Source of the DNA: Psychrobacter fulvigenes
Lineage (GTDB): Bacteria; Pseudomonadota; Gammaproteobacteria; Pseudomonadales; Moraxellaceae
DNA: 64,000 nucleotides
Direction of reading: 5' to 3'
Assembly (NCBI RefSeq): GCF_904846155.1
Contig: NZ_CAJGZP010000001.1
Location: 310,001 to 374,000 of the forward strand
Positions 19,667-29,558 of this stretch are shown here, in pieces. The notes below the pieces were generated by a model. The model saw only the letters and a program-made list of their open reading frames with translations, had not been told where the DNA came from and did no database searches. The position numbers and the translations under genes are program-made. Position 1 is the stretch's first letter; each line of letters starts with the position of its first letter.

Positions 19667-22600
19667 ATGATGACCATCGCCGGACAACCGTTTCTTACCG
19701 ATTTTCAGACGCAGCAACTCATCAGTCAGTTTCAGCAAAAAACCGAGCTAAATGTCAGCCACATCCATACTCAGCAAGTTTATGTGCTATCACGAGAACT
19801 AAAAGGTGATGAGCATAAAAAAGCGCTGGACTTATTTGGTATTAAAGAAGATACCCAGCTTGCCGCCCCGCAAGATAACCAATTACAAGTGATCGTGAGC
19901 CCGCGTTTTGGTACGATTTCGCCGTGGGCAAGTAAAGCGACCGATATTTTTAATAACTGTGACATTAAGATTAACCGTGTCGAGCGCGTCATTGTTTATA
20001 CCCTAACTGTTGATGAAAAAGCAGACGGCAAAGTAGGTGCTACGCTACCTAAAGCCGCTGAGCAATTATTGTTTGATCGCATGACCCAAAGCTTGGTTTA
20101 TGACTTAAACGATGTGAATAAATTGTTCGATGACGAGCAACCAGCGTCGCTTAATCATATCGATGTGATTGGACAAGGTCAGTCAGCGTTAGAAGCAGCC
20201 AACACAGAGTTTGGTTTTGCGCTATCTGTTGAGGATATTGACTACCTAATGAATGCGTACGTCAATGAGCTAAAGCGTAATCCAACCGACGTTGAGCTAA
20301 TGATGTTTGCCCAAGCAAACTCAGAGCATTGCCGTCACAAGATTTTCAACGCTGAATGGACAGTTGATGGCGCAGTACAGCCAAAATCACTGTTCCAAAT
20401 GATTAAGAATACTTATAAGGCCAACCCACAAGGTATCTTGTCGGCTTATAAAGACAACGCTGCGGTAATGGCTGGGGCAGAGGGGATGCGTTTTTACTCG
20501 ATTCCTACCGACGCTCAAGATGCTAATTCTGCCCATCCCTACGATTTTCATCAAGAAGAAATCGATATCTTAATGAAAGTCGAAACCCATAACCATCCAA
20601 CCGCGATTGCCCCTTATGCCGGTGCAGCGACAGGTGCGGGTGGTGAAATTCGTGATGAAGGTGCAACCGGTCGTGGCGGTAAGCCCAAAGCAGGTCTGAC
20701 GGGTTTCCATGTGTCACATTTACATATCCCAGAGCTGAGCGAAAAGTGGGAGCAGTCCGGTCAGGTCAGTACGCAGGACTATGGTACGCCGGATCGTATG
20801 GCAACCAGTCTTGAGATTATGACCGAGGCGCCATTGGGCTCAGCTAACTTCTCTAACGAGTTTGGTCGTCCAAACCTATGCGGTTACTTCCGTAGTTTCC
20901 AGTTGGACACTTCAGCGGCAAAAGATGGCAGCCAAATGCGCGGCTATCATAAGCCTATCATGCTGGCAGGCGGTTACGGCAATATCAAACGCAACTTGAT
21001 TGAGAAAAACGCCATTCAGCAAGGTGACCTGCTTATCGTCCTTGGTGGCCCTGCGATGCAAATTGGCCTTGGTGGCGGTGCAGCGTCTTCTGTCGATAGT
21101 GGCTCACTCGATGAAGGCTTAGACTTTGCTTCTGTACAGCGTGATAACGCTGAGATGGAGCGTCGCTGTCAAGAAGTCCTTGATCGCTGTTGGGCCCTCG
21201 CTGGTAATGGAAAGTCTGGTAACGATATTGACGCAAGCAACAACAGTAAAGATGGCAACCCAATCGTTTCATTACATGACGTCGGAGCAGGCGGTCTATC
21301 GAATGCCATGCCAGAACTGGTCAATGATCATGAAATGGGCGCGGTGTTAAATCTACGTAAAATCCCGTCGTTAGAAGCAGGCATGTCGCCAATGGCGATT
21401 TGGTCAAACGAAGCGCAAGAGCGTTATGTGCTGGCGATTCGCCCTGAAAGCAAAGAGCAGTTCGATGCGATCTGTGCGCGTGAACGCTGTCCGTATGCGA
21501 TCTTAGGCGAAGCAACTGAAATCCGTCAGCTTGTCGTTAATGATGAGCTGCTGCCTGAGCAGCCAGTCGATATGCCGATGCAAGTGTTGCTCGGTGGTAC
21601 GCCGCAAATGCAGCGTAGCTTTAGCCGTCAAGAGGCTACTTTGCCAGCGCTAGAACTTAGTGAAGTCAATCTAGCCGAATCAATCAAAGATGTATTACGT
21701 CATCCAACCGTCGCTAGCAAATCGTTCCTGATTAGCATCGGTGACCGTTCTATCACTGGTATGGTCGTGCGTGATCAGTATGTTGGTCGCTATCAAGTTC
21801 CTGTAGCAGATTGCGCGGTTACGGCATCAGGCTTGATAGCTCTCGATGGTCAGCCAATGAGCGGTGAAGCGATGAGTGTTGGTGAACGTACGCCTGTCGC
21901 GCTTATCAATCCAAAAGCCTCTGCACGATTAGCCGTTGGTGAAGCGATTACCAATATCGCGGGCGCGCGTATCACTCAGCTATCTGATATCACGATGTCA
22001 GCGAACTGGATGGCAGCTTGTGGCGAAGACGTAGAAGATGCGGCATTATTTGACGCCGTCCATACTGTCGGCGAAGAGCTATGCCCAGCACTCGGTATCG
22101 CTATTCCAGTTGGTAAAGATTCGCTATCCATGCGTGCCAACTGGAGTGACGAAGACGCTGATAATCAAAACCAAGACAAATCAGTCGTTTCACCAATGAG
22201 CCTCGTCATTACGGCCTTTGCACCAGTCGTTGATGTGGCAAAAACCCTAACGCCTGAGCTAATCAATGGCGATAGCGCCTTCTACCGTATTGATTTATCA
22301 AAAGGTCAATTCCGTCTAGGCGGCTCAATCCTTGCGCAAACGCTTAGCCAACTAGGCAATGACTGCCCAGATTTAGCGCAGCCAAGCGACTTGATCGACT
22401 TCTTTAACTTTGTCCAAGCGGGTAACGAGCAAGGCGTCATCAGCGCCTATCACGATATCGGTGATGGCGGGCTGCTAGCGACTATCGCTGAGATGCAATT
22501 CACCAGCCGCCAAGGAATCAAGCTGTCATTGACTGATGATAATCTGCTCGGTCAACTGTTCAGTGAAGAGCTGGGTGCAGTTATTCAAGTACTACCAGAA

Positions 22601-23695
22601 AATGTTGCCGCGTTAATGCAACTGGCAGAAGAATTCAACGTCAGCGATATGCTGAGTCTCGTTGGTCAAAGCTCAGAAGAAGACAGCTTAATCATCCAAA
22701 CGCCAACGCTCATGGGTGACGATACTCTACGCTTTAGCCGTAGCGAGCTGCAACAAGAGTGGAGTCAGGTTAGCTATCAAATTGCTCGCCGCCGTGACAA
22801 CCCAGCTTGCGTACAGCAAGAATATGACTTGATTGCCGATACAAACCACAAAGGTCTAATCGCTGCACCAAACTTTGACCTCAATCAAAAGGTTGAAGAA
22901 CCGTACTTAAATAGCCGTGAAACTAAGCCAAGAGTCGCCATTTTGCGTGAGCAAGGCGTCAACGGTCAGTCAGAAATGGCAGCAGGCTTTACGCAAGCTG
23001 GCTTTGAAGCGGTCGACGTGCACATGAGCGATTTGCTTGAAGGTCGTATCAATCTACGTGACTTTGACGGTCTAGTTGCTTGTGGTGGCTTTAGTTACGG
23101 TGATGTACTCGGCGCAGGCTCGGGCTGGGCAAACTCTATCTTGTTCCATGACGAATTACGCATGCAGTTTGTGCGCTTCTTTGCCCGTCCGGATACCTTC
23201 TCACTTGGTGTCTGTAACGGTTGTCAGATGATGGCGCAATTGAAAGACCTCATCCCAGGCGCGGAAAACTTCCCAAGATTTATTGCCAACCAGTCAGCTC
23301 GTTTTGAAGCGCGTACGGTCAACGTCAAAGTCGAGCGTACCAAGTCCATCCTATTCAAAGGTATGCAAGATAGCATCTTACCAATCGCTGTGGCGCACGG
23401 TGAAGGCTATGCCACGCTGGACAACACCGAGATCGACGGTATGGCAAAACATGGTCAGCTGGCCATGCGTTATGTCGATAGCCAAGGTCATCCAACTGAG
23501 ACTTATCCGCTCAATCCAAACGGTTCGCTCGGCGGTGTCACGGGTCTGTGTAGCACCGACGGTCGCGTCACTATCATGATGCCGCACCCTGAGCGTACGC
23601 TACGTGCCTACAATCACAGCTGGAAACCAGAAGAGTGGAACGAGGACGGCGCGTGGATGCGTATGTTCCGTAATGCGCGGGCTTGGTTGCGTTAG
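19667..23695 (+). CDS. purL: Phosphoribosylformylglycinamidine synthase
   Basis: This large single-chain FGAM synthase (1342 aa, the proteobacterial long form) catalyses step four of purine synthesis, from FGAR, ATP and glutamine. The N-terminal PurS-like domain covers about residues 1-150. The first synthetase half includes MKVETHNHPTAIAPYAGAAT (about 302-321), then GGGAASSV and HDVGAGGLSNAMPE. The second half contains GKDSLSMR and HDIGDGGLLATIAEMQF. The glutaminase domain occupies the last ~275 residues, with the nucleophile in GVCNGCQMM and the His/Glu in PHPERTLRA. All catalytic parts are present. It is monocistronic with a strong terminator. Confidence 0.97.
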   Translation: MMTIAGQPFLTDFQTQQLISQFQQKTELNVSHIHTQQVYVLSRELKGDEHKKALDLFGIKEDTQLAAPQDNQLQVIVSPRFGTISPWASKATDIFNNCDIKINRVERVIVYTLTVDEKADGKVGATLPKAAEQLLFDRMTQSLVYDLNDVNKLFDDEQPASLNHIDVIGQGQSALEAANTEFGFALSVEDIDYLMNAYVNELKRNPTDVELMMFAQANSEHCRHKIFNAEWTVDGAVQPKSLFQMIKNTYKANPQGILSAYKDNAAVMAGAEGMRFYSIPTDAQDANSAHPYDFHQEEIDILMKVETHNHPTAIAPYAGAATGAGGEIRDEGATGRGGKPKAGLTGFHVSHLHIPELSEKWEQSGQVSTQDYGTPDRMATSLEIMTEAPLGSANFSNEFGRPNLCGYFRSFQLDTSAAKDGSQMRGYHKPIMLAGGYGNIKRNLIEKNAIQQGDLLIVLGGPAMQIGLGGGAASSVDSGSLDEGLDFASVQRDNAEMERRCQEVLDRCWALAGNGKSGNDIDASNNSKDGNPIVSLHDVGAGGLSNAMPELVNDHEMGAVLNLRKIPSLEAGMSPMAIWSNEAQERYVLAIRPESKEQFDAICARERCPYAILGEATEIRQLVVNDELLPEQPVDMPMQVLLGGTPQMQRSFSRQEATLPALELSEVNLAESIKDVLRHPTVASKSFLISIGDRSITGMVVRDQYVGRYQVPVADCAVTASGLIALDGQPMSGEAMSVGERTPVALINPKASARLAVGEAITNIAGARITQLSDITMSANWMAACGEDVEDAALFDAVHTVGEELCPALGIAIPVGKDSLSMRANWSDEDADNQNQDKSVVSPMSLVITAFAPVVDVAKTLTPELINGDSAFYRIDLSKGQFRLGGSILAQTLSQLGNDCPDLAQPSDLIDFFNFVQAGNEQGVISAYHDIGDGGLLATIAEMQFTSRQGIKLSLTDDNLLGQLFSEELGAVIQVLPENVAALMQLAEEFNVSDMLSLVGQSSEEDSLIIQTPTLMGDDTLRFSRSELQQEWSQVSYQIARRRDNPACVQQEYDLIADTNHKGLIAAPNFDLNQKVEEPYLNSRETKPRVAILREQGVNGQSEMAAGFTQAGFEAVDVHMSDLLEGRINLRDFDGLVACGGFSYGDVLGAGSGWANSILFHDELRMQFVRFFARPDTFSLGVCNGCQMMAQLKDLIPGAENFPRFIANQSARFEARTVNVKVERTKSILFKGMQDSILPIAVAHGEGYATLDNTEIDGMAKHGQLAMRYVDSQGHPTETYPLNPNGSLGGVTGLCSTDGRVTIMMPHPERTLRAYNHSWKPEEWNEDGAWMRMFRNARAWLR

Positions 23696-23731
23696 TCACA
23701 AACCTTTAGAAATTGCTTATAGTTTAGATAT

Positions 23732-23762
23732 AAAAAAAGGTGGGCTTAGGCTCACCTTTTTT
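23732..23762 (+). terminator. Rho-independent terminator after purL
   Basis: AAAAAAAGGTG and CACCTTTTTT bracket a GGCTTAGGCT centre, giving a stable hairpin with A- and T-runs. Confidence 0.8.
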
Positions 23763-23794
23763 ATGTTTGGGATTTGAGTGTTTTCAGAAATAGG

Positions 23795-23890
23795 GGAGCT
23801 AATCCCTGAGAAGCGTTAAAAAATTGCATTGCAATTTTAGCTTCGCAAGTGAAAATTCCTCAAAGGGAATTTTCTGTTTCGCTACTATCT
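23795..23890. repeat. Composite palindromic repeat, copy 3
   Basis: The copy begins with GGAGCTAATCCCTG (related to 4780-4798). It continues with a 19 bp palindrome around AAAATTGCA/TGCAATTTT and an inverted repeat GAAAATTCC/GGGAATTTTC. The two hairpins and the spacer between them align with the complement of 1025-1083. Confidence 0.6.
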
Positions 23891-23909
23891 GCCAGTCTGG
23901 GAGAGGCGC

Positions 23910-23968
23910 TAGCTAAGGTTTGGGTCGTCGCTTGCTCCGCGTCGACACCCCAAAACCTAGCCACCGCA
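23910..23968. repeat. Large imperfect hairpin
   Basis: CTAAGGTTTGGGTCGTCGC pairs imperfectly with GCGTCGACACCCCAAAACCTAG across a CTTGCTCC loop. It lies at the purL-side edge of the AT-rich AAA/DUF4435 island. No T-run follows, so it reads as a repeat relic and not a terminator. Confidence 0.5.
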
Positions 23969-24065
23969 ACTCGCCCAAACCAGTAGGGCACTGTTCCAGT
24001 TGGAGGTGAGTGGCGCCTTCTTATCGATATTATGATCTAAATTCACCAATAAGAATTAACTGAAG

Positions 24066-25037
24066 TCAGGGTTTAAGAGCTTCAATTTTTGCAAATATTT
24101 TTTGATGAATTTCATCTTCATCGCAAATAGGATATCTACGTAGATATGTCTTGATTTGAGACTCTTCTGCGAGAGTTTTCTTTACCTGAGACTTTCGTTC
24201 ACTAATTTGATCGCCTTGAAATTTTCTTTTGATAATATCTAATTCTAAATGAGACAATATAGCAGTCAATTGGTTTACTATATTAATAACTAGTTCTTCT
24301 AGCTTGTGCCCGTTTATAAATCTGTAAGCATTATCCTGATTAACGCCTAATTGAAGTAGATGATTTCGAGCATTCAATTCTTCTGATAATGAAAGTGTAT
24401 AATGCTGGAAATAATTTTGGAATTTATGTGAAATACTATCTAAAACAGTCATATCAATGATTGGCTTATTCTGATCATTAACCGTTATGATTCTTTTATC
24501 TGTTATATGAAAGCATTGATGAAATTCATCATGATTTAAGTTCTCTTTATTGATGTTTTTTAGATGAATAAATTTTATGAGTCCATCAAACACTAATGCT
24601 GAAAATCTTTTAATAAACAGATCTACGTTAATGTCGTGAGTGATAGTAAATTTAATATCTGATATAAATTGCTGAAGACTATTTTTTTCTATGAGTACAC
24701 TCTCACGGTTATATGCAAATGTATGTAAAAGGTAGGGATTAGAGTAGAACTCATTTCCGTACCCAATATTTGGGCACAGATAGTCGAAATCACTATCTAC
24801 AGCAATTAGAGCCTCAAGCTTTGCGTCTGAATAATGTGGCGCTAAATTGCATTTTCCGCGTTTACTCCAAGGAACAATACGATATTTATCTGGAAGACTT
24901 TTCGTAATAAATTTTTCCCAAAACCAAGTATCGCTACTGTCCTCAATATATAGATTGTATTTCTCAAAACCAGAGTGAATTTTATTGTATGCTTTAATAA
25001 AATTAGGATTAAAAGGATACTGTATAAAGGTTAACAT
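24066..25037 (-). CDS. DUF4435 (Toprim-like) protein
   Basis: This 323 aa protein has the DUF4435 layout: a strand and acidic residue in YNLYIEDSSDTWFWEKF (E32), a KRGKCNL glycine-type loop (about 59-65), and the DxD motif LIAVDSDFDYL (D81, D83, D85), as in OLD/Toprim nucleases. A Lys/Glu-rich helical C-terminus follows. The start ATG overlaps the stop of the AAA ATPase gene by one base (TAATG), so the two are translationally coupled. DUF4435 proteins paired with an AAA ATPase include the effector AriB of PARIS anti-phage systems, where it is a Toprim nuclease. The match to that group is inference. Confidence 0.75.
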   Translation of the reverse strand: MLTFIQYPFNPNFIKAYNKIHSGFEKYNLYIEDSSDTWFWEKFITKSLPDKYRIVPWSKRGKCNLAPHYSDAKLEALIAVDSDFDYLCPNIGYGNEFYSNPYLLHTFAYNRESVLIEKNSLQQFISDIKFTITHDINVDLFIKRFSALVFDGLIKFIHLKNINKENLNHDEFHQCFHITDKRIITVNDQNKPIIDMTVLDSISHKFQNYFQHYTLSLSEELNARNHLLQLGVNQDNAYRFINGHKLEELVINIVNQLTAILSHLELDIIKRKFQGDQISERKSQVKKTLAEESQIKTYLRRYPICDEDEIHQKIFAKIEALKP

Positions 25038-26062
25038 TAATCAACCTCATAAGAATCAATATTATCAAAAACAATATCTTTAATATCTGTAAGACAGTCA
25101 AACCAACCATTCATTAGTATTGCTGGGCTATGAGTAACAATTATGATTTGGCTGGAACTGTTTACTTTATTAATTTCATCTAACAGTTTTTCTTGCCATG
25201 ATAGATGAAGTGAAATTTCAGGTTCATCCATCAGAATTAAAGAGTTATTGATACTTGCATTAATTACTTTTAAAAATATAAATACAACTTGTCTTTTCCC
25301 AGAAGATAGCTCTTTAAAACTTAATTCTTTACCATTAAGTAACAAAACCTTCAAATTGTTATTGATAATAACAATTTCCTTATCAGTCTCATTAAAAAGA
25401 TTGTTTAAAGAGTTTGTAAGCTTTTCTTTCAGATTTTTTTCTGGATACTTTGAGCTATTATCAAGCAATCTTTTGATCTCATTGCTAATCTCGAGATCAA
25501 GGAACGTTGTAGGGTTTCCACTACTTGTAGTTACATTGTTTACAGAATTGGCATTCATATTTATTGTTGAAATAAACTCAGTTTCCATAGGTTCAACATT
25601 GATACCAAATTTATAACTCGACAACCCTTCTTGATTTATTCTATTTTTATCTTGGATACTAGATTTTTTCTTGAAATCTAAGATGACATTTTTTTTAATG
25701 TTTTTGATTATTTCTGTATTAAATTTTTCAGCCTCTTTGAAGTGGGTCAGAGAGCTTTCAATTGCATTCATAAAATCGTCTGAAGTAGATAATTCTTTTA
25801 TAATCACTTCAAGAAGATCAGGTGGGATAGCCTCTTTTAAAGCATGATATTTGTCATTATTTTTCATCTCGAGCATTACGTCATCACAAAGATTTAGATA
25901 TTTAGAGCTTTCTTGAGTAATAGCTGAATTTATAAGGTGAAGGATAGTAGATTTGCCAAGGCCATTTTTTCCAACTAGAACATTGACTCTATTGAGTTTC
26001 CAGTTGATGTCTTTCTCATCAAATAAATTTCTGATTTTTATGCTTTTTATATAATGATTCAT
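25037..26062 (-). CDS. AAA ATPase of defence-type pair
   Basis: The protein is 341 aa from the chosen start at 26062 (MNHYIKSIKIRNLF); an earlier in-frame start at 26104 would add 14 residues with no family support. It is an ABC/SMC-like ATPase: Walker A GKNGLGKST near residue 31, signature ELSSGKRQVV, Walker B SLILMDEPEISLHL, and the switch histidine in IIIVTHSPAIL. The coding DNA is clearly AT-rich against purL upstream. It is the first gene of a coupled two-gene unit with a DUF4435 protein, the arrangement of PARIS (AriA-AriB) and related OLD-like immunity modules. It is shorter than the AriA proteins I recall, so it may be a distinct subtype. Confidence 0.75.
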   Translation of the reverse strand: MNHYIKSIKIRNLFDEKDINWKLNRVNVLVGKNGLGKSTILHLINSAITQESSKYLNLCDDVMLEMKNNDKYHALKEAIPPDLLEVIIKELSTSDDFMNAIESSLTHFKEAEKFNTEIIKNIKKNVILDFKKKSSIQDKNRINQEGLSSYKFGINVEPMETEFISTINMNANSVNNVTTSSGNPTTFLDLEISNEIKRLLDNSSKYPEKNLKEKLTNSLNNLFNETDKEIVIINNNLKVLLLNGKELSFKELSSGKRQVVFIFLKVINASINNSLILMDEPEISLHLSWQEKLLDEINKVNSSSQIIIVTHSPAILMNGWFDCLTDIKDIVFDNIDSYEVD

Positions 26063-26417
26063 AAATTTTCTTAAGGTCAAATTATTATGTGTATTTAAAA
26101 CCAAACTAAGGGATTTTAAATATAGTGGCTATTTAAATTTTTTAAATAGCAATAAATGTTAGCTCAATAAATACTATCGAATTGATAGAAAGTTTAGCGA
26201 ATGTTATATTGTGGTTCTTGCTAAGGCACCAATTCATTGATGTACAGTAACAGGTTTTTAAGGTTTAGTGAAGACTCATATACTACTAGGTCTATTACAT
26301 ACTTGTATGTATACTTATAGCGTTTAAATCTTGTAGATTCTAAGCAAAATATAATGATTGAAATCGTTGTGAATATTATATAAAAACAAAGTAGACTAGA
26401 AGCTCATAATTCTCCAG
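26063..26417. other. AT-rich spacer upstream of AAA gene
   Basis: About 355 bp, very AT-rich. It contains the palindrome at 26128-26150 and direct TATGTATACTTAT-like strings near 26305-26320. No coding region is supported. It probably holds the promoter of the ATPase operon. Confidence 0.45.
26128..26150. promoter_or_regulatory. Operator-like palindrome before AAA gene
   Basis: GCTATTTAAA and TTTAAATAGC form a perfect 10 bp inverted repeat with a 3 nt centre, 66 bp before the ATPase start codon. This is a position suited to an operator or promoter-proximal hairpin. No binding protein is known for it. Confidence 0.4.
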
Positions 26418-26603
26418 CTAATCACTATCCAAACCCTTCCGTGCCTCAGCAATCAACTCCTTAACCCTAGCACTCTCCCTCAACACACAAGCCTCATATT
26501 CAGAGAGGGGCTCAACTTCCTGCTTCTTTTCTTGTTCTTGTTTGGCTTTTTCTTCTAGATATTTCTGAAGCTCATCTTGTTCGTCATGTTGTGAGTCACT
26601 CAT
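26418..26603 (-). CDS. Small hypothetical protein
   Basis: This 61 aa, highly charged protein (MSDSQHDEQDELQKYLEEKAK, then Gln/Glu/Lys-rich, then YEACVLRESARVKELIAEAR) is predicted to be nearly all helical, with a possible coiled coil. A good ribosome site (AAGGAG on the minus strand) precedes the start. It lies 19 bp downstream of the glutamine amidotransferase gene on the same strand, so probably co-transcribed. I do not recognise the family. Confidence 0.55.
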   Translation of the reverse strand: MSDSQHDEQDELQKYLEEKAKQEQEKKQEVEPLSEYEACVLRESARVKELIAEARKGLDSD

Positions 26604-26622
26604 GGTTTATTCTCCTTACTAT

Positions 26623-27366
26623 TTATTTTTCAGCTATCCGATTTAGCATAGCGGATAGTCTTGCGTTATTTTCTTCGATGTATTTATCACCCAGTGCGAT
26701 TATCTCAGCGGGTGATTGCACGGTTTTGGGATATTCTTTCAGTCCACTTTGAATGGAGTTATTACCATTTACTACCATCTTGGCAAGACTCTCTTTGGTC
26801 ACTTCAAAGTGACATTGCCACGCCAGTAACCAAGTGCCCAGCTCTTTATGCAGTGGGGTCTGATAGACAAAGCCTTGATTCGCCCAAGCATCCGTCGATG
26901 CAATAATGCTAGCACCTTTTGGACAGTCAAAACCATCACCATGAAAGTGAAAAACGGCAAAATCTTGCTTGGGCAAATCTTGTAATAGAGGATGCGCCTG
27001 ACCTGCTGGCGTGAGTCGAATCGGCAACCAACCGATTTCTTTTACCCCAGACGGCTGCACGCTAGCACCCAAACAATGGGCGATAAGCTGCGCCCCTAAG
27101 CAAATACCGATGACCGTTTTGCCTGCATCAACACTTTGTTTAATCAAGCGTTTTTCCGCGATGAGCCAAGGATGCTTTTCTTCATCATGGACACTCATCG
27201 GTCCACCCATCACGATGAGCCAATCAAAGCTATCTAGCGCTGGCAGGGCATCATCATCGTAAGAACGACTGAGGTTAAGAGTATGATTGTGACTGTTTGC
27301 CCACTGCTTGATGAAGTTAAAGTCTTCATAATCGGTGTGGAATAGAGCATGGATGCGTAGTGTCAT
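26623..27366 (-). CDS. Class I glutamine amidotransferase protein
   Basis: The chosen start (MTLRIHALFH, 27366) has GAGG six bases upstream; an earlier start at 27402 would add 12 residues. The 247 aa protein has the class I GATase triad context: the nucleophile Cys in GICLGAQLIAHCLGA, WQCHFEVT for the His, and Glu two residues further on as in GuaA-like stand-alone enzymes. Its N-terminal WLIVMGGPMSVHDEEKHPWL is typical of this group. Possible roles include GMP-synthase-like or gamma-glutamyl hydrolysis; none can be fixed. Confidence 0.8.
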   Translation of the reverse strand: MTLRIHALFHTDYEDFNFIKQWANSHNHTLNLSRSYDDDALPALDSFDWLIVMGGPMSVHDEEKHPWLIAEKRLIKQSVDAGKTVIGICLGAQLIAHCLGASVQPSGVKEIGWLPIRLTPAGQAHPLLQDLPKQDFAVFHFHGDGFDCPKGASIIASTDAWANQGFVYQTPLHKELGTWLLAWQCHFEVTKESLAKMVVNGNNSIQSGLKEYPKTVQSPAEIIALGDKYIEENNARLSAMLNRIAEK

Positions 27367-27470
27367 AAGATACCTCATTAGCAAATACTGATTAACAAGC
27401 ATTGATTAACAAGTTTGATTAGCAAATATCAGTTAAAGAACACCGTTTTGCCAAGGCTTTAAATTCAATC

Positions 27471-28352
27471 TCAATAAAAGTTATCACGACCAGCATACTT
27501 CTTATTGAGTGCCTTTAAAATAGCATAAGTCTCTAAATCTAGCTCTCCCGTTGGACGCTGCGGTCTGAAATGCAATTGAAACGCATAAACCACATTGCGA
27601 CTGGCTTTATCCCATTCGCCTGTATCGTTGATTTGATAGCCATAATTACGAAAGGCTTGCTTAATCTCAGGTATCGTTGCTGCTGCAAACTCGTCTGGAT
27701 GCATAAAGAATTGCTTGTCAAATTCATCATACCAAGCGCCAACGCCGTACTCGAAATACAGTCGCTTCCAAGGGAACTTGGCACCGGGGTCGATTTTGCG
27801 TGACGGCGCTATATCAGAGTGACCAACGATGTTTTTTGGAGAGATGTCATATCTTTTTACCAAATCCTGTAATAGCTGCGCGACCTTTTTAATTTGCAAC
27901 TCATCAAATTCCACATAGTGCTCATAAGGTCGATATTCTAGCTCGCTATTTCTAAGCGCGTCTCGATATTCAGGTTTAATACCGCTATTTACAATTTCGA
28001 TGCCGATAGAGGTATCGTTGAGGATGGTTCTACCTGCAAACCCGCTGTCACCCGCATGCCAAGCACGCTCGCTTTCGGGCACGAGGTTATAAATTTTATC
28101 ATCGTCACTGGATAAGATCAGGTAGTGGGAGCTGACCTGACCAGTGGTCAAGGTCTTTATCGATCGCTCATTATCTGAGACTGTATAGTGCAGGACAATA
28201 GTTTTAATGCGCTCGCTTTTGCCTTGGGCTTGATAGGTTTCACTATCGATAAGGTAGCGCGGCTCTGAGGTGGCGACGCAGCCGATAAGTGGCACTGTCA
28301 TAAACGATGTTAATACTGATGCTAGCGCTAAAGAGGTGATGTTTTTTGCCAT
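27471..28352 (-). CDS. amiD: N-acetylmuramoyl-L-alanine amidase lipoprotein
   Basis: This enzyme cleaves the bond between MurNAc and L-Ala in peptidoglycan or its fragments. The start at 28352 gives a clean lipoprotein signal (MAKNITSLALASVL, then lipobox LIGC); a GTG at 28370 is an alternative. The Amidase_2 domain has the zinc ligands in TIVLHYTVS and VGHSDIAPSRKIDPGAKFPW, plus the substrate segment WHAGDSGFAGR. The C-terminal ~70 residues form a PG_binding_1 domain (IKQAFRNYGYQINDTGEWD). The domain order matches E. coli AmiD. Location: periplasm, membrane-anchored. Confidence 0.88.
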   Translation of the reverse strand: MAKNITSLALASVLTSFMTVPLIGCVATSEPRYLIDSETYQAQGKSERIKTIVLHYTVSDNERSIKTLTTGQVSSHYLILSSDDDKIYNLVPESERAWHAGDSGFAGRTILNDTSIGIEIVNSGIKPEYRDALRNSELEYRPYEHYVEFDELQIKKVAQLLQDLVKRYDISPKNIVGHSDIAPSRKIDPGAKFPWKRLYFEYGVGAWYDEFDKQFFMHPDEFAAATIPEIKQAFRNYGYQINDTGEWDKASRNVVYAFQLHFRPQRPTGELDLETYAILKALNKKYAGRDNFY

Positions 28353-28493: not shown

Positions 28494-28748
28494 TTATTCA
28501 TCAACTAGTTGACTGGCATCAACAGCATTGTCAGTATCTGCTTCCACTTTTATTAGCTTGATAGTATTAAACTCAATTATCAACCCTTGAGTAGACTTAT
28601 CCTCAGTATTAGATTTTATCTGTCCACCTGTGATATCTGGAATAATTACTGCTAAATAATGCCCATCAGTAATCTCTTCATTTTTCAGGATAAGCTTTGT
28701 TAATTCAGTCATACTGTATTGAGCTTCGACATTTCTTTCTTTATTCAT
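28494..28748 (-). CDS. Third gene of hicAB operon, unknown
   Basis: The start was set at ATG 28748 because GGAGGT sits seven bases upstream of it. An earlier ATG at 28763 overlaps the hicB stop but has no such site. The product is 84 aa: MNKERNVEAQYSMTELTKLI, then DGHYLAVIIPDITGGQIKS, then LIIEFNTIKLIKVEADTDN. The pattern (N-terminal helix, then several beta strands, then an acidic tail) recalls a small family of unknown role. It is tightly linked to hicA-hicB and ends at a terminator, so it is part of the same unit. It could modulate the toxin-antitoxin pair. Confidence 0.6.
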   Translation of the reverse strand: MNKERNVEAQYSMTELTKLILKNEEITDGHYLAVIIPDITGGQIKSNTEDKSTQGLIIEFNTIKLIKVEADTDNAVDASQLVDE

Positions 28749-28762
28749 GACACTTACCTCCA

Positions 28763-29260
28763 TTACTGCACAGCTTTTGAAACAGTAAACGTCTTAGGCT
28801 TAACGGAATAATCATAGTCAAAATCAATCTCAGAGCCTACTGTAGAATAGCTTTTAGGGTGAGTAAACTGTTCTATAAACGTGTTTTTATCAATAAATAT
28901 GTAACTATCTTTTAGCGTATTCTCTGTAAAATAGTTCTCCACACATTTGGAAATAAAACTATTTAAAGTGATACCTAAAATATTAGACTCATGAATACTC
29001 TTTCGGTGCATACTTTCTGACATACGAACATTAAAAGTACCGCTACAGGGTTTGTCAGGACATATATTTTCTTCTGCGCACATCTCTAAATATTCATCAA
29101 CAGCAGATTCAAAAGATAATTTTAATTCTTCTAAAGTCTTACCATCATACATAACTAGGTCTTGAATCATTTGAATTTTGCCAAAAAGACACATATCTTC
29201 TGTACTAAATTCTATTGAACCAGTATAAGCTTTATAAGAGAAGTGTTGTTTGTTAGCCAT
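28763..29260 (-). CDS. hicB: HicB-family antitoxin
   Basis: The start ATG at 29260 overlaps the last codons of hicA (ATGGCTAA), so translation is coupled; a frame opening at 29287 would lie inside hicA. The product is 165 aa. Residues 5-62 have the HicB partial RNase H fold pattern (YTGSIEFSTEDMCLFGKI, then GKTLEELKLSFESAVDEYLE). Residues 72-112 form an Arc-type ribbon-helix-helix (SGTFNVRMSESMHRKSIHES). The ~50 aa tail is extra. HicB binds HicA and represses the operon in studied systems. Confidence 0.85.
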   Translation of the reverse strand: MANKQHFSYKAYTGSIEFSTEDMCLFGKIQMIQDLVMYDGKTLEELKLSFESAVDEYLEMCAEENICPDKPCSGTFNVRMSESMHRKSIHESNILGITLNSFISKCVENYFTENTLKDSYIFIDKNTFIEQFTHPKSYSTVGSEIDFDYDYSVKPKTFTVSKAVQ

Positions 29261-29513
29261 TGTTTGACCATACCTTATTATCATCAAAGTGCTGAATAAC
29301 TTGACGTATATAGCATCTTTTCATGATAGATTGTGGATGAGGTTCATGGAAACTCATAGATAAGCCAGTATTCTTATTGATGAACTTTCTTCTGGAGCCG
29401 CTACCTTTTGCTAATTGATAATCATGCAAAGACAACAACTTCACAAACTCATCCCATGTGAAATCTGCGGGAACGGTTTTGAAACGTTTTATAAGTTTTT
29501 CTGACTTAGACAT
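29253..29513 (-). CDS. hicA: HicA-family mRNA interferase toxin
   Basis: This toxin has a dsRBD-like fold and cleaves mRNA in characterised homologues. The start was placed at ATG 29513, seven bases after AGG; an earlier frame start at 29543 would overlap the operator palindrome. The product is 86 aa. The family pattern is clear: TWDEFVKLLSLHDYQLAKGS, GSRRKFINK, and the catalytic His in SFHEPHPQSIMKRCYIRQVI. It is the first gene of the operon, before hicB and a third small gene. At 86 aa it is slightly longer than the ~60 aa E. coli form. Confidence 0.85.
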   Translation of the reverse strand: MSKSEKLIKRFKTVPADFTWDEFVKLLSLHDYQLAKGSGSRRKFINKNTGLSMSFHEPHPQSIMKRCYIRQVIQHFDDNKVWSNNG

Positions 29514-29539
29514 ATAGTACCTAATTGCACACGAGGTTT

Positions 29540-29558
29540 GCAACTACTTTCTAGTTGC
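29540..29558. promoter_or_regulatory. Putative hicAB operator
   Basis: GCAACTA and TAGTTGC form a perfect 7 bp inverted repeat with a 5 nt spacer, 27 bp before the hicA start. This is the expected site for an RHH-type HicB autorepressor. Confidence 0.55.

Follow-up and report, generated by a model that had tools for sequence, protein, structure and literature searches.

What kind of system is encoded by two AT-rich genes that lie side by side downstream of purL in Psychrobacter fulvigenes, and how firmly is it rooted at that place? The pair is found in the 64,000-nucleotide stretch analysed here (G000:C1:310001-374000, hereafter the window), which is part of a 3.47-Mb genome. An initial annotation had read it as a coupled ATPase and DUF4435 pair resembling the phage anti-restriction-induced system (PARIS). 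This reading is supported by the profiles and folds of both proteins and by the gene order, and the locus is very probably a compact PARIS defence system. PARIS itself is already known; the system is ordinary in kind but well placed.

The ariA-like gene (25037-26062, minus strand) encodes an ABC-type (AAA_15/AAA_21) ATPase of 341 amino acids (aa), and the ariB-like gene (24066-25037, minus strand) a DUF4435 Toprim nuclease of 323 aa. Both reading frames are open, and the start codon of the second shares base 25037 with the stop codon of the first (TAATG), confirming the one-base overlap of two AT-rich genes that had been described. An alternative TTG start at 26104 would lengthen the ATPase to 355 aa; we take 341 aa as its length because the start column coincides with the ATG at 26062 in 25 of 27 aligned homologues. 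The G+C content across the pair is 31% (24001-25000) and 29% (25001-26000), as against 50% (23001-24000) and 43% (27001-28000) in the flanks.

The order of an AriA ATPase followed by a DUF4435 AriB, to which the initial annotation had likened the pair, is borne out by PADLOC, by Pfam and by the folds of both proteins. The ATPase matches AAA_21 at 67.5 bits (cut-off 27) and AAA_15 at 66.6 bits (cut-off 32.1), and its partner matches DUF4435 at 51.2 bits (cut-off 27), with the two genes overlapping. These scores are far above chance and exceed the thresholds of the published detection rule for PARIS (Rousset 2022; PMC9122126), which places the ATPase gene next to the DUF4435 gene and sets 32 bits for AAA_15, 27 for AAA_21 and 27 for DUF4435. 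In PADLOC, the AriA model (4.6e-41) and the AriB model (8.4e-25) score above those of other ATPase or Toprim systems, and the DUF4435 protein has no second family up to an E-value (E) of 10. PDB searches with the ATPase retrieved AriA (3.1e-16 and 3.3e-28), and comparison of its predicted fold likewise supports AriA as the nearest solved relative. For the DUF4435 model, PARIS AriB is the sole significant fold match; a failure to match this fold had been named as a ground for abandoning the PARIS reading, which therefore stands. The predicted structure is a Toprim fold with the conserved catalytic Glu and Asp, and the acidic sites singled out at the start hold up across 22 aligned DUF4435 proteins, in which E32, D36, D81 and D83 are invariant, D85 is kept in at least 90% and G61-K62 is nearly invariant. 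All of the motifs ascribed to the ATPase are likewise present, namely Walker A (GKNGLGKS, residues 31-38), an ABC-type signature (LSSGKRQ, 252-258), Walker B (LILMDEP, 275-281) and the switch histidine (H311).

Among the closest known systems are the OLD-family nucleases (6nk8, 6njw) and the Septu and retron PtuA ATPases (8ee4, 9n69 and others), the latter sharing the ATPase fold class of the window protein. In Septu, PtuA is partnered by an HNH nuclease (PtuB). The title of PDB entry 9n69 names a complex with an HNH nuclease, whereas the partner in the window is a DUF4435 protein, for which neither Pfam (E up to 1) nor PADLOC (E up to 10) gives a match to an HNH (PtuB-type) family. Also among them is the PARIS of Escherichia coli B185 (AriA 464 aa; AriB chains of 305-306 residues; PDB 8ux9, 8v45-8v49), which has in common with the window an ABC-type ATPase with an LSSG-x-RQ signature and a DEPEISLH Walker B, followed by a DUF4435 Toprim nuclease, with the same folds in both. 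The two differ in that AriB is 12-14% identical and the window ATPase lacks ~110 aa in the stretch from residue ~137 to ~210: its alignment to B185 AriA (profile positions 4-136 on 5-137 and 210-332 on 320-444) skips ~110 residues, which are therefore absent from the middle of the protein. At 341 aa the ATPase thus departs from the B185 length; however, the published detection rule has no length term, and the mismatch therefore does not exclude PARIS membership.

Several observations nevertheless weigh against too close an equation with the E. coli system. Since ~110 aa of the middle of E. coli AriA are lacking, the ring, the docking or the trigger may differ. Both predicted models are of monomers; that of the ATPase is of moderate quality (predicted local distance difference test score, pLDDT, 77.9), and at the low identity given above the superposition of AriB on solved AriB yields a TM-score of 0.38-0.40 and a root-mean-square deviation of 5.0-5.4 (VIA) or >10 (Foldseek). 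Moreover, PDB sequence searches with AriB, with an AriB profile and with a plasmid AriB returned no AriB chain.

The short ATPase is shared by related pairs. Of the 21 loci searched for both genes, some of which coincide, 13 distinct ones carry full-length open reading frames (ORFs) of both, always ariA followed by ariB on one strand, with an AriA of 308-367 aa: the window, P. cryohalolentis K5 plasmid 1, the viral contig L005, loci L008, L009, L012, L013, L014, L016 and L017 (L008 and L017 in the same genome), and three further plasmids, E. coli W pRK2, A. haemolyticus pAhaem11616c and K. pneumoniae pK708696-4. Incomplete loci have a broken or partial ATPase (L006, L010), an ATPase match only (L020, L093) or, in genome G038 (L004/L059), only a remnant of ariB. 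The four plasmid pairs, three of them on plasmids of <7 kb, resemble that of the window in that a DUF4435-type gene follows, in the same orientation, an ariA ORF of 325-343 aa, and differ in being plasmid-borne and in an AriB 23-35% identical to that of the window. On pRK2 (L143), a 5.4-kb mobilizable plasmid, the pair spans the record start and the second gene is annotated as a hypothetical protein. DefenseFinder divides PARIS into types I and II, and the initial annotation had raised a distinct subtype for the window. The ATPase is indeed short, but all 13 distinct intact pairs share the short form, which thus characterises the sampled branch as a whole, and the existing PADLOC models recognise it.

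The locus is accessory. An AriB search of 105 genomes of the genus found matches in three, the window's own, G013 and the remnant in G038, and an AriA alignment search (E up to 1e-20) also in three, of which the match in G023, unlike those in the window's own genome and in G013, is weaker and partial. The pair is thus intact in 2 of the 105, and AriB matches occur in 10 of 348 family genomes; the G013 pair lies on a 41,221-bp contig with coordinates as in P. cryohalolentis K5 plasmid 1. In G053, which has the nearest amidotransferase found (95% identity) and a purL region ~90% identical in DNA, the amidotransferase side comes almost directly after purL: 228 bp separate the matching segments, as against 2,727 bp in the window. 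The segment missing from G053 spans approximately 23778-26417, bounds that were judged by eye from the sequences. In G038, a 72-aa ORF antisense to purL matches AriB residues 253-321 at 52% identity; it starts ~0.47 kb beyond the end of purL (0.37 kb for ariB in the window) and adjoins a 1014-aa HD-CE/HATPase gene. The proposal of an inserted island is thus sustained by the pair-less site in G053, by the rarity of the intact pair and by the hotspot at the site described below, and a pair fixed and syntenic in all relatives, which would have spoken against it, is not what the genus presents.

A system of PARIS form could nonetheless be a damaged copy. The ABC signature (25289-25309, minus strand) has Lys at residue 256, where LSSGERQ is found in 119 of the best 120 of 1,355 ATPase homologues, the remaining one lying outside the search pattern; the Glu-to-Lys change occurs in none of the 119 motif-matching homologues among the matches listed, and Glu is kept both in a 99%-identical relative (P0029) and in B185 AriA. 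The lysine may impair this copy of AriA, or the base may be an error. On the former account ATP-driven function would be prevented and the pair would be decaying, and what is left of ariB at the corresponding place in G038 shows that such loci do decay. On the other hand, both frames are otherwise intact, the other motifs are kept, and a single base difference could equally be a sequencing error. To our knowledge, the signature glutamate is not known to be essential. We regard decay as unlikely.

With respect to mechanism, the E. coli system offers a model: according to two reports (PMC11455837, PMC12409363), a hexamer of AriA holds three AriB, which Ocr or other triggers free, and the freed AriB dimerises and, as a two-metal Toprim ribonuclease, cuts tRNA-Lys, tRNA-Thr and, to a lesser extent, tRNA-Asn, whereas the AriB E26A mutant does not cut. 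By homology, AriA of the window would form an ATP-binding ring that keeps AriB inactive until a phage protein binds AriA; the released AriB would then dimerise and cut host tRNAs, and this would halt translation and phage growth in the manner of abortive infection. To judge from variability and from the position of break points, the trigger would be read by AriA residues ~51-160. In an alignment of 28 rows this region (25583-25912, minus strand, computed from residue numbers) has a mean pairwise identity of 25% (51-110) and 23% (111-160), as opposed to 40-75% in the remaining blocks.

The break points come from a comparison of the compact family, in which eight AriA-AriB pairs were linked by inference from the equal lengths of their contigs. 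The AriA of c11380 shares 85% identity with its c2846 counterpart and 51% with the window protein, whereas its AriB is 87% identical to that of the window and 77% to that of c2846; tree tests agree, in that AriA rejects a clade of the window and c11380 (approximately unbiased test, p 0.001) and AriB rejects one of c11380 and c2846 (p 0.0098). Within single proteins, the AriB P0003 switches parent at 53-70, with window-like states at 1 of the 20 informative sites ahead of the break and at 73 of the 81 behind it (0/20,000 shuffles as extreme), and the break moves to 74-87 if the AriA presumed to belong with it is added upstream. The AriA P0032 switches at 158-167, with 54/56 window-like sites before and 0/44 after (0/20,000 shuffles). 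Furthermore, among 121 AriA proteins, 809 of 7,260 pairs are at least 85% identical in one half; of the 25 pairs with the highest contrast, 23 are alike C-terminally (85-98%) and unlike N-terminally (35-67%) and two are reversed, a count in which pairs share proteins and two of the 23 involve the 306-aa P0117, with gaps counted as differences. We read the pattern as a sensing module that is both swapped and quick to change, set against a constant core; the data are fair evidence that the family exchanges its sensor halves, and the hypervariable stretch together with the break points suggests that it is here that the phage trigger is read. We tentatively propose, as possible rather than probable, that the family is a platform for plug-in sensors, in which AriA residues 1-160 (hypervariable in 51-160) form an exchangeable trigger cassette, moved by recombination relative to an ATPase C-terminal half and a tRNase that are both nearly constant, with break points directly behind the variable region (158-167) and in the first ~90 AriB residues. 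In Psychrobacter, the purL hotspot would be where such systems arrive and give way to one another.

Against this proposal it must be said that the tested clades were chosen after the identities had been seen, that the switch in c11380 AriB has seven sites before the break (44/20,000 shuffles as extreme), and that no break was found inside c11380 AriA. Since c2207 and c4926 group in the whole-AriB tree, that recombination is visible only by segment, and a difference in rate between the halves of AriA need not mean exchange. The mosaic could then be an artefact, of chimeric contigs on the one hand and of faster N-terminal change on the other. The key proteins (P0002/P0040, P0003/P0042 and P0032) lie on contigs of 2.2-11.4 kb from the sources 'lgn' and 'ena', and because the origin of these recombinant contigs is unstated, chimeric assembly has to be considered; the common contig of P0002 and P0040, and of P0003 and P0042, is likewise inferred only from equal lengths, and in the scan of 121 AriA proteins just P0032 has close parents on both sides. 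However, break points appear in three separate cases (c11380, c2207 and P0032), and for two of them the shuffles give strong support inside one protein (P0003 and P0032, respectively), which leaves an artefact rather improbable.

Very improbable, finally, is a reading in which the ATPase belongs with PtuA of Septu and retrons, or the pair is OLD-like, and its job is toxin-antitoxin stabilisation, plasmid maintenance or the like in place of tRNA-cutting defence: PtuA is the second PADLOC family of the ATPase (9.5e-24) and maintenance is plausible for the pairs on plasmids, but the partner is a DUF4435 protein whose one significant fold match is AriB, and in E. coli PARIS the loss of either gene was non-toxic, which argued against a toxin-antitoxin role (PMC9122126).

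The 3′ side of purL, where this compact PARIS lies, is a strong chromosomal cargo hotspot. purL (19667-23695, plus strand) is the conserved left anchor, its C-terminal part being present in 102 of 105 genus genomes, and a 61-aa ORF with a glutamine amidotransferase-like gene (26418-27402, minus strand) is the right anchor in this lineage; both anchors were named from their sequence rather than by profile search. A purL match was found in 101 genus genomes besides that of the window; the downstream regions of 80 of these and of the window, 81 in all, were compared, and a flank gene from a list of 11 frequent clusters was found in 78, the contigs ending earlier in three. Its distance from purL is 375-6,729 bp (median 3,186) and exceeds 1 kb in 72 of the 78 regions, in comparison with 8 of 337 gaps that separate other adjacent flank genes in the same regions (counting gene pairs that occur at least eight times).

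The cargo varies between genomes and is in part defence-like. PADLOC, run on 29 chosen cargo proteins, gave eight strong matches (E <1e-20), nine weak ones and none for 12; the strong matches are HamA and HamB (Hachiman, G088), LmuA and LmuB (Lamassu, G013), RmrA (G004), PDC-S33 (G054), PDC-S49 (G061) and an AriA-like ATPase (G063), and further cargo includes RelE-HTH, NACHT, TIR-like and helicase proteins. Some caution is due. The 11 flank clusters were picked by eye, and c10, c12, c13 and c15 (9-13 genomes) were counted as cargo and c14 (9 genomes) as flank; strong matches number 8 of 29, so that a minority of the proteins carries the label of defence; four of the 29 (L054) adjoin the G045 amidotransferase and do not lie directly behind purL; and some cargo, such as a DinB-family protein and a beta-helix/RTX protein (G012), is not obviously defensive. 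Among the matches listed in literature searches, no title or abstract opening mentions a purL defence hotspot in Psychrobacter, which may nevertheless be in print.

At the purL site of G063, the AriA-like ATPase (456 aa; L093 575-1945; PADLOC 2.7e-27) overlaps a 292-aa gene (1909-2784) for which Pfam gives nothing at E 0.001; the two may be an ATPase and an effector of a kind not yet described. The commonest large cargo is cluster c12 (up to ~1,000 aa, in 11 of 81 genomes, e.g., L059 7693-10737), whose G038 member has HD-CE and HATPase domains by Pfam and no PADLOC match at E 0.01; we regard it as a candidate defence protein. Another cluster of similar size, c33, is present in 3 of 81 genomes.

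The repeats noted earlier on the purL side are real and of a dispersed type. A ~70-nt repeat (~23804-23877) and a ~100-nt element (~23877-24003), together 23804-24003 on the plus strand, adjoin the purL terminator. Segment 23778-24030 has 16 matches in its own genome including itself, 13 to the ~70-nt left part and two to the ~100-nt right part, and some part of it is matched in 24 of the 81 purL-downstream regions, its own included. In a search of 23650-26650, no direct-repeat pair bounding the segment was seen. A second, truncated purL 3′ end occurs in 7 of the 81 regions, and the repeats and truncated copies together hint at the route by which cargo is exchanged.

Elsewhere in the window (28494-29543, minus strand) lie a HicA toxin (29256-29543, Pfam 1e-7), a HicB-family protein (28763-29287, 7.7e-14) and an 89-aa ORF. 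They occupy a second accessory gap, between amidase-like and MOSC-like genes so named from their sequence, where G053 has ~1.7 kb without DNA similarity.

The present analysis singles out a variable stretch of ~110 residues in compact AriA as the likely reader of the trigger, and natural AriA variants that share an AriB make this idea testable. Furthermore, uncharacterised defence genes may usefully be sought on the 3′ side of purL in Psychrobacter.
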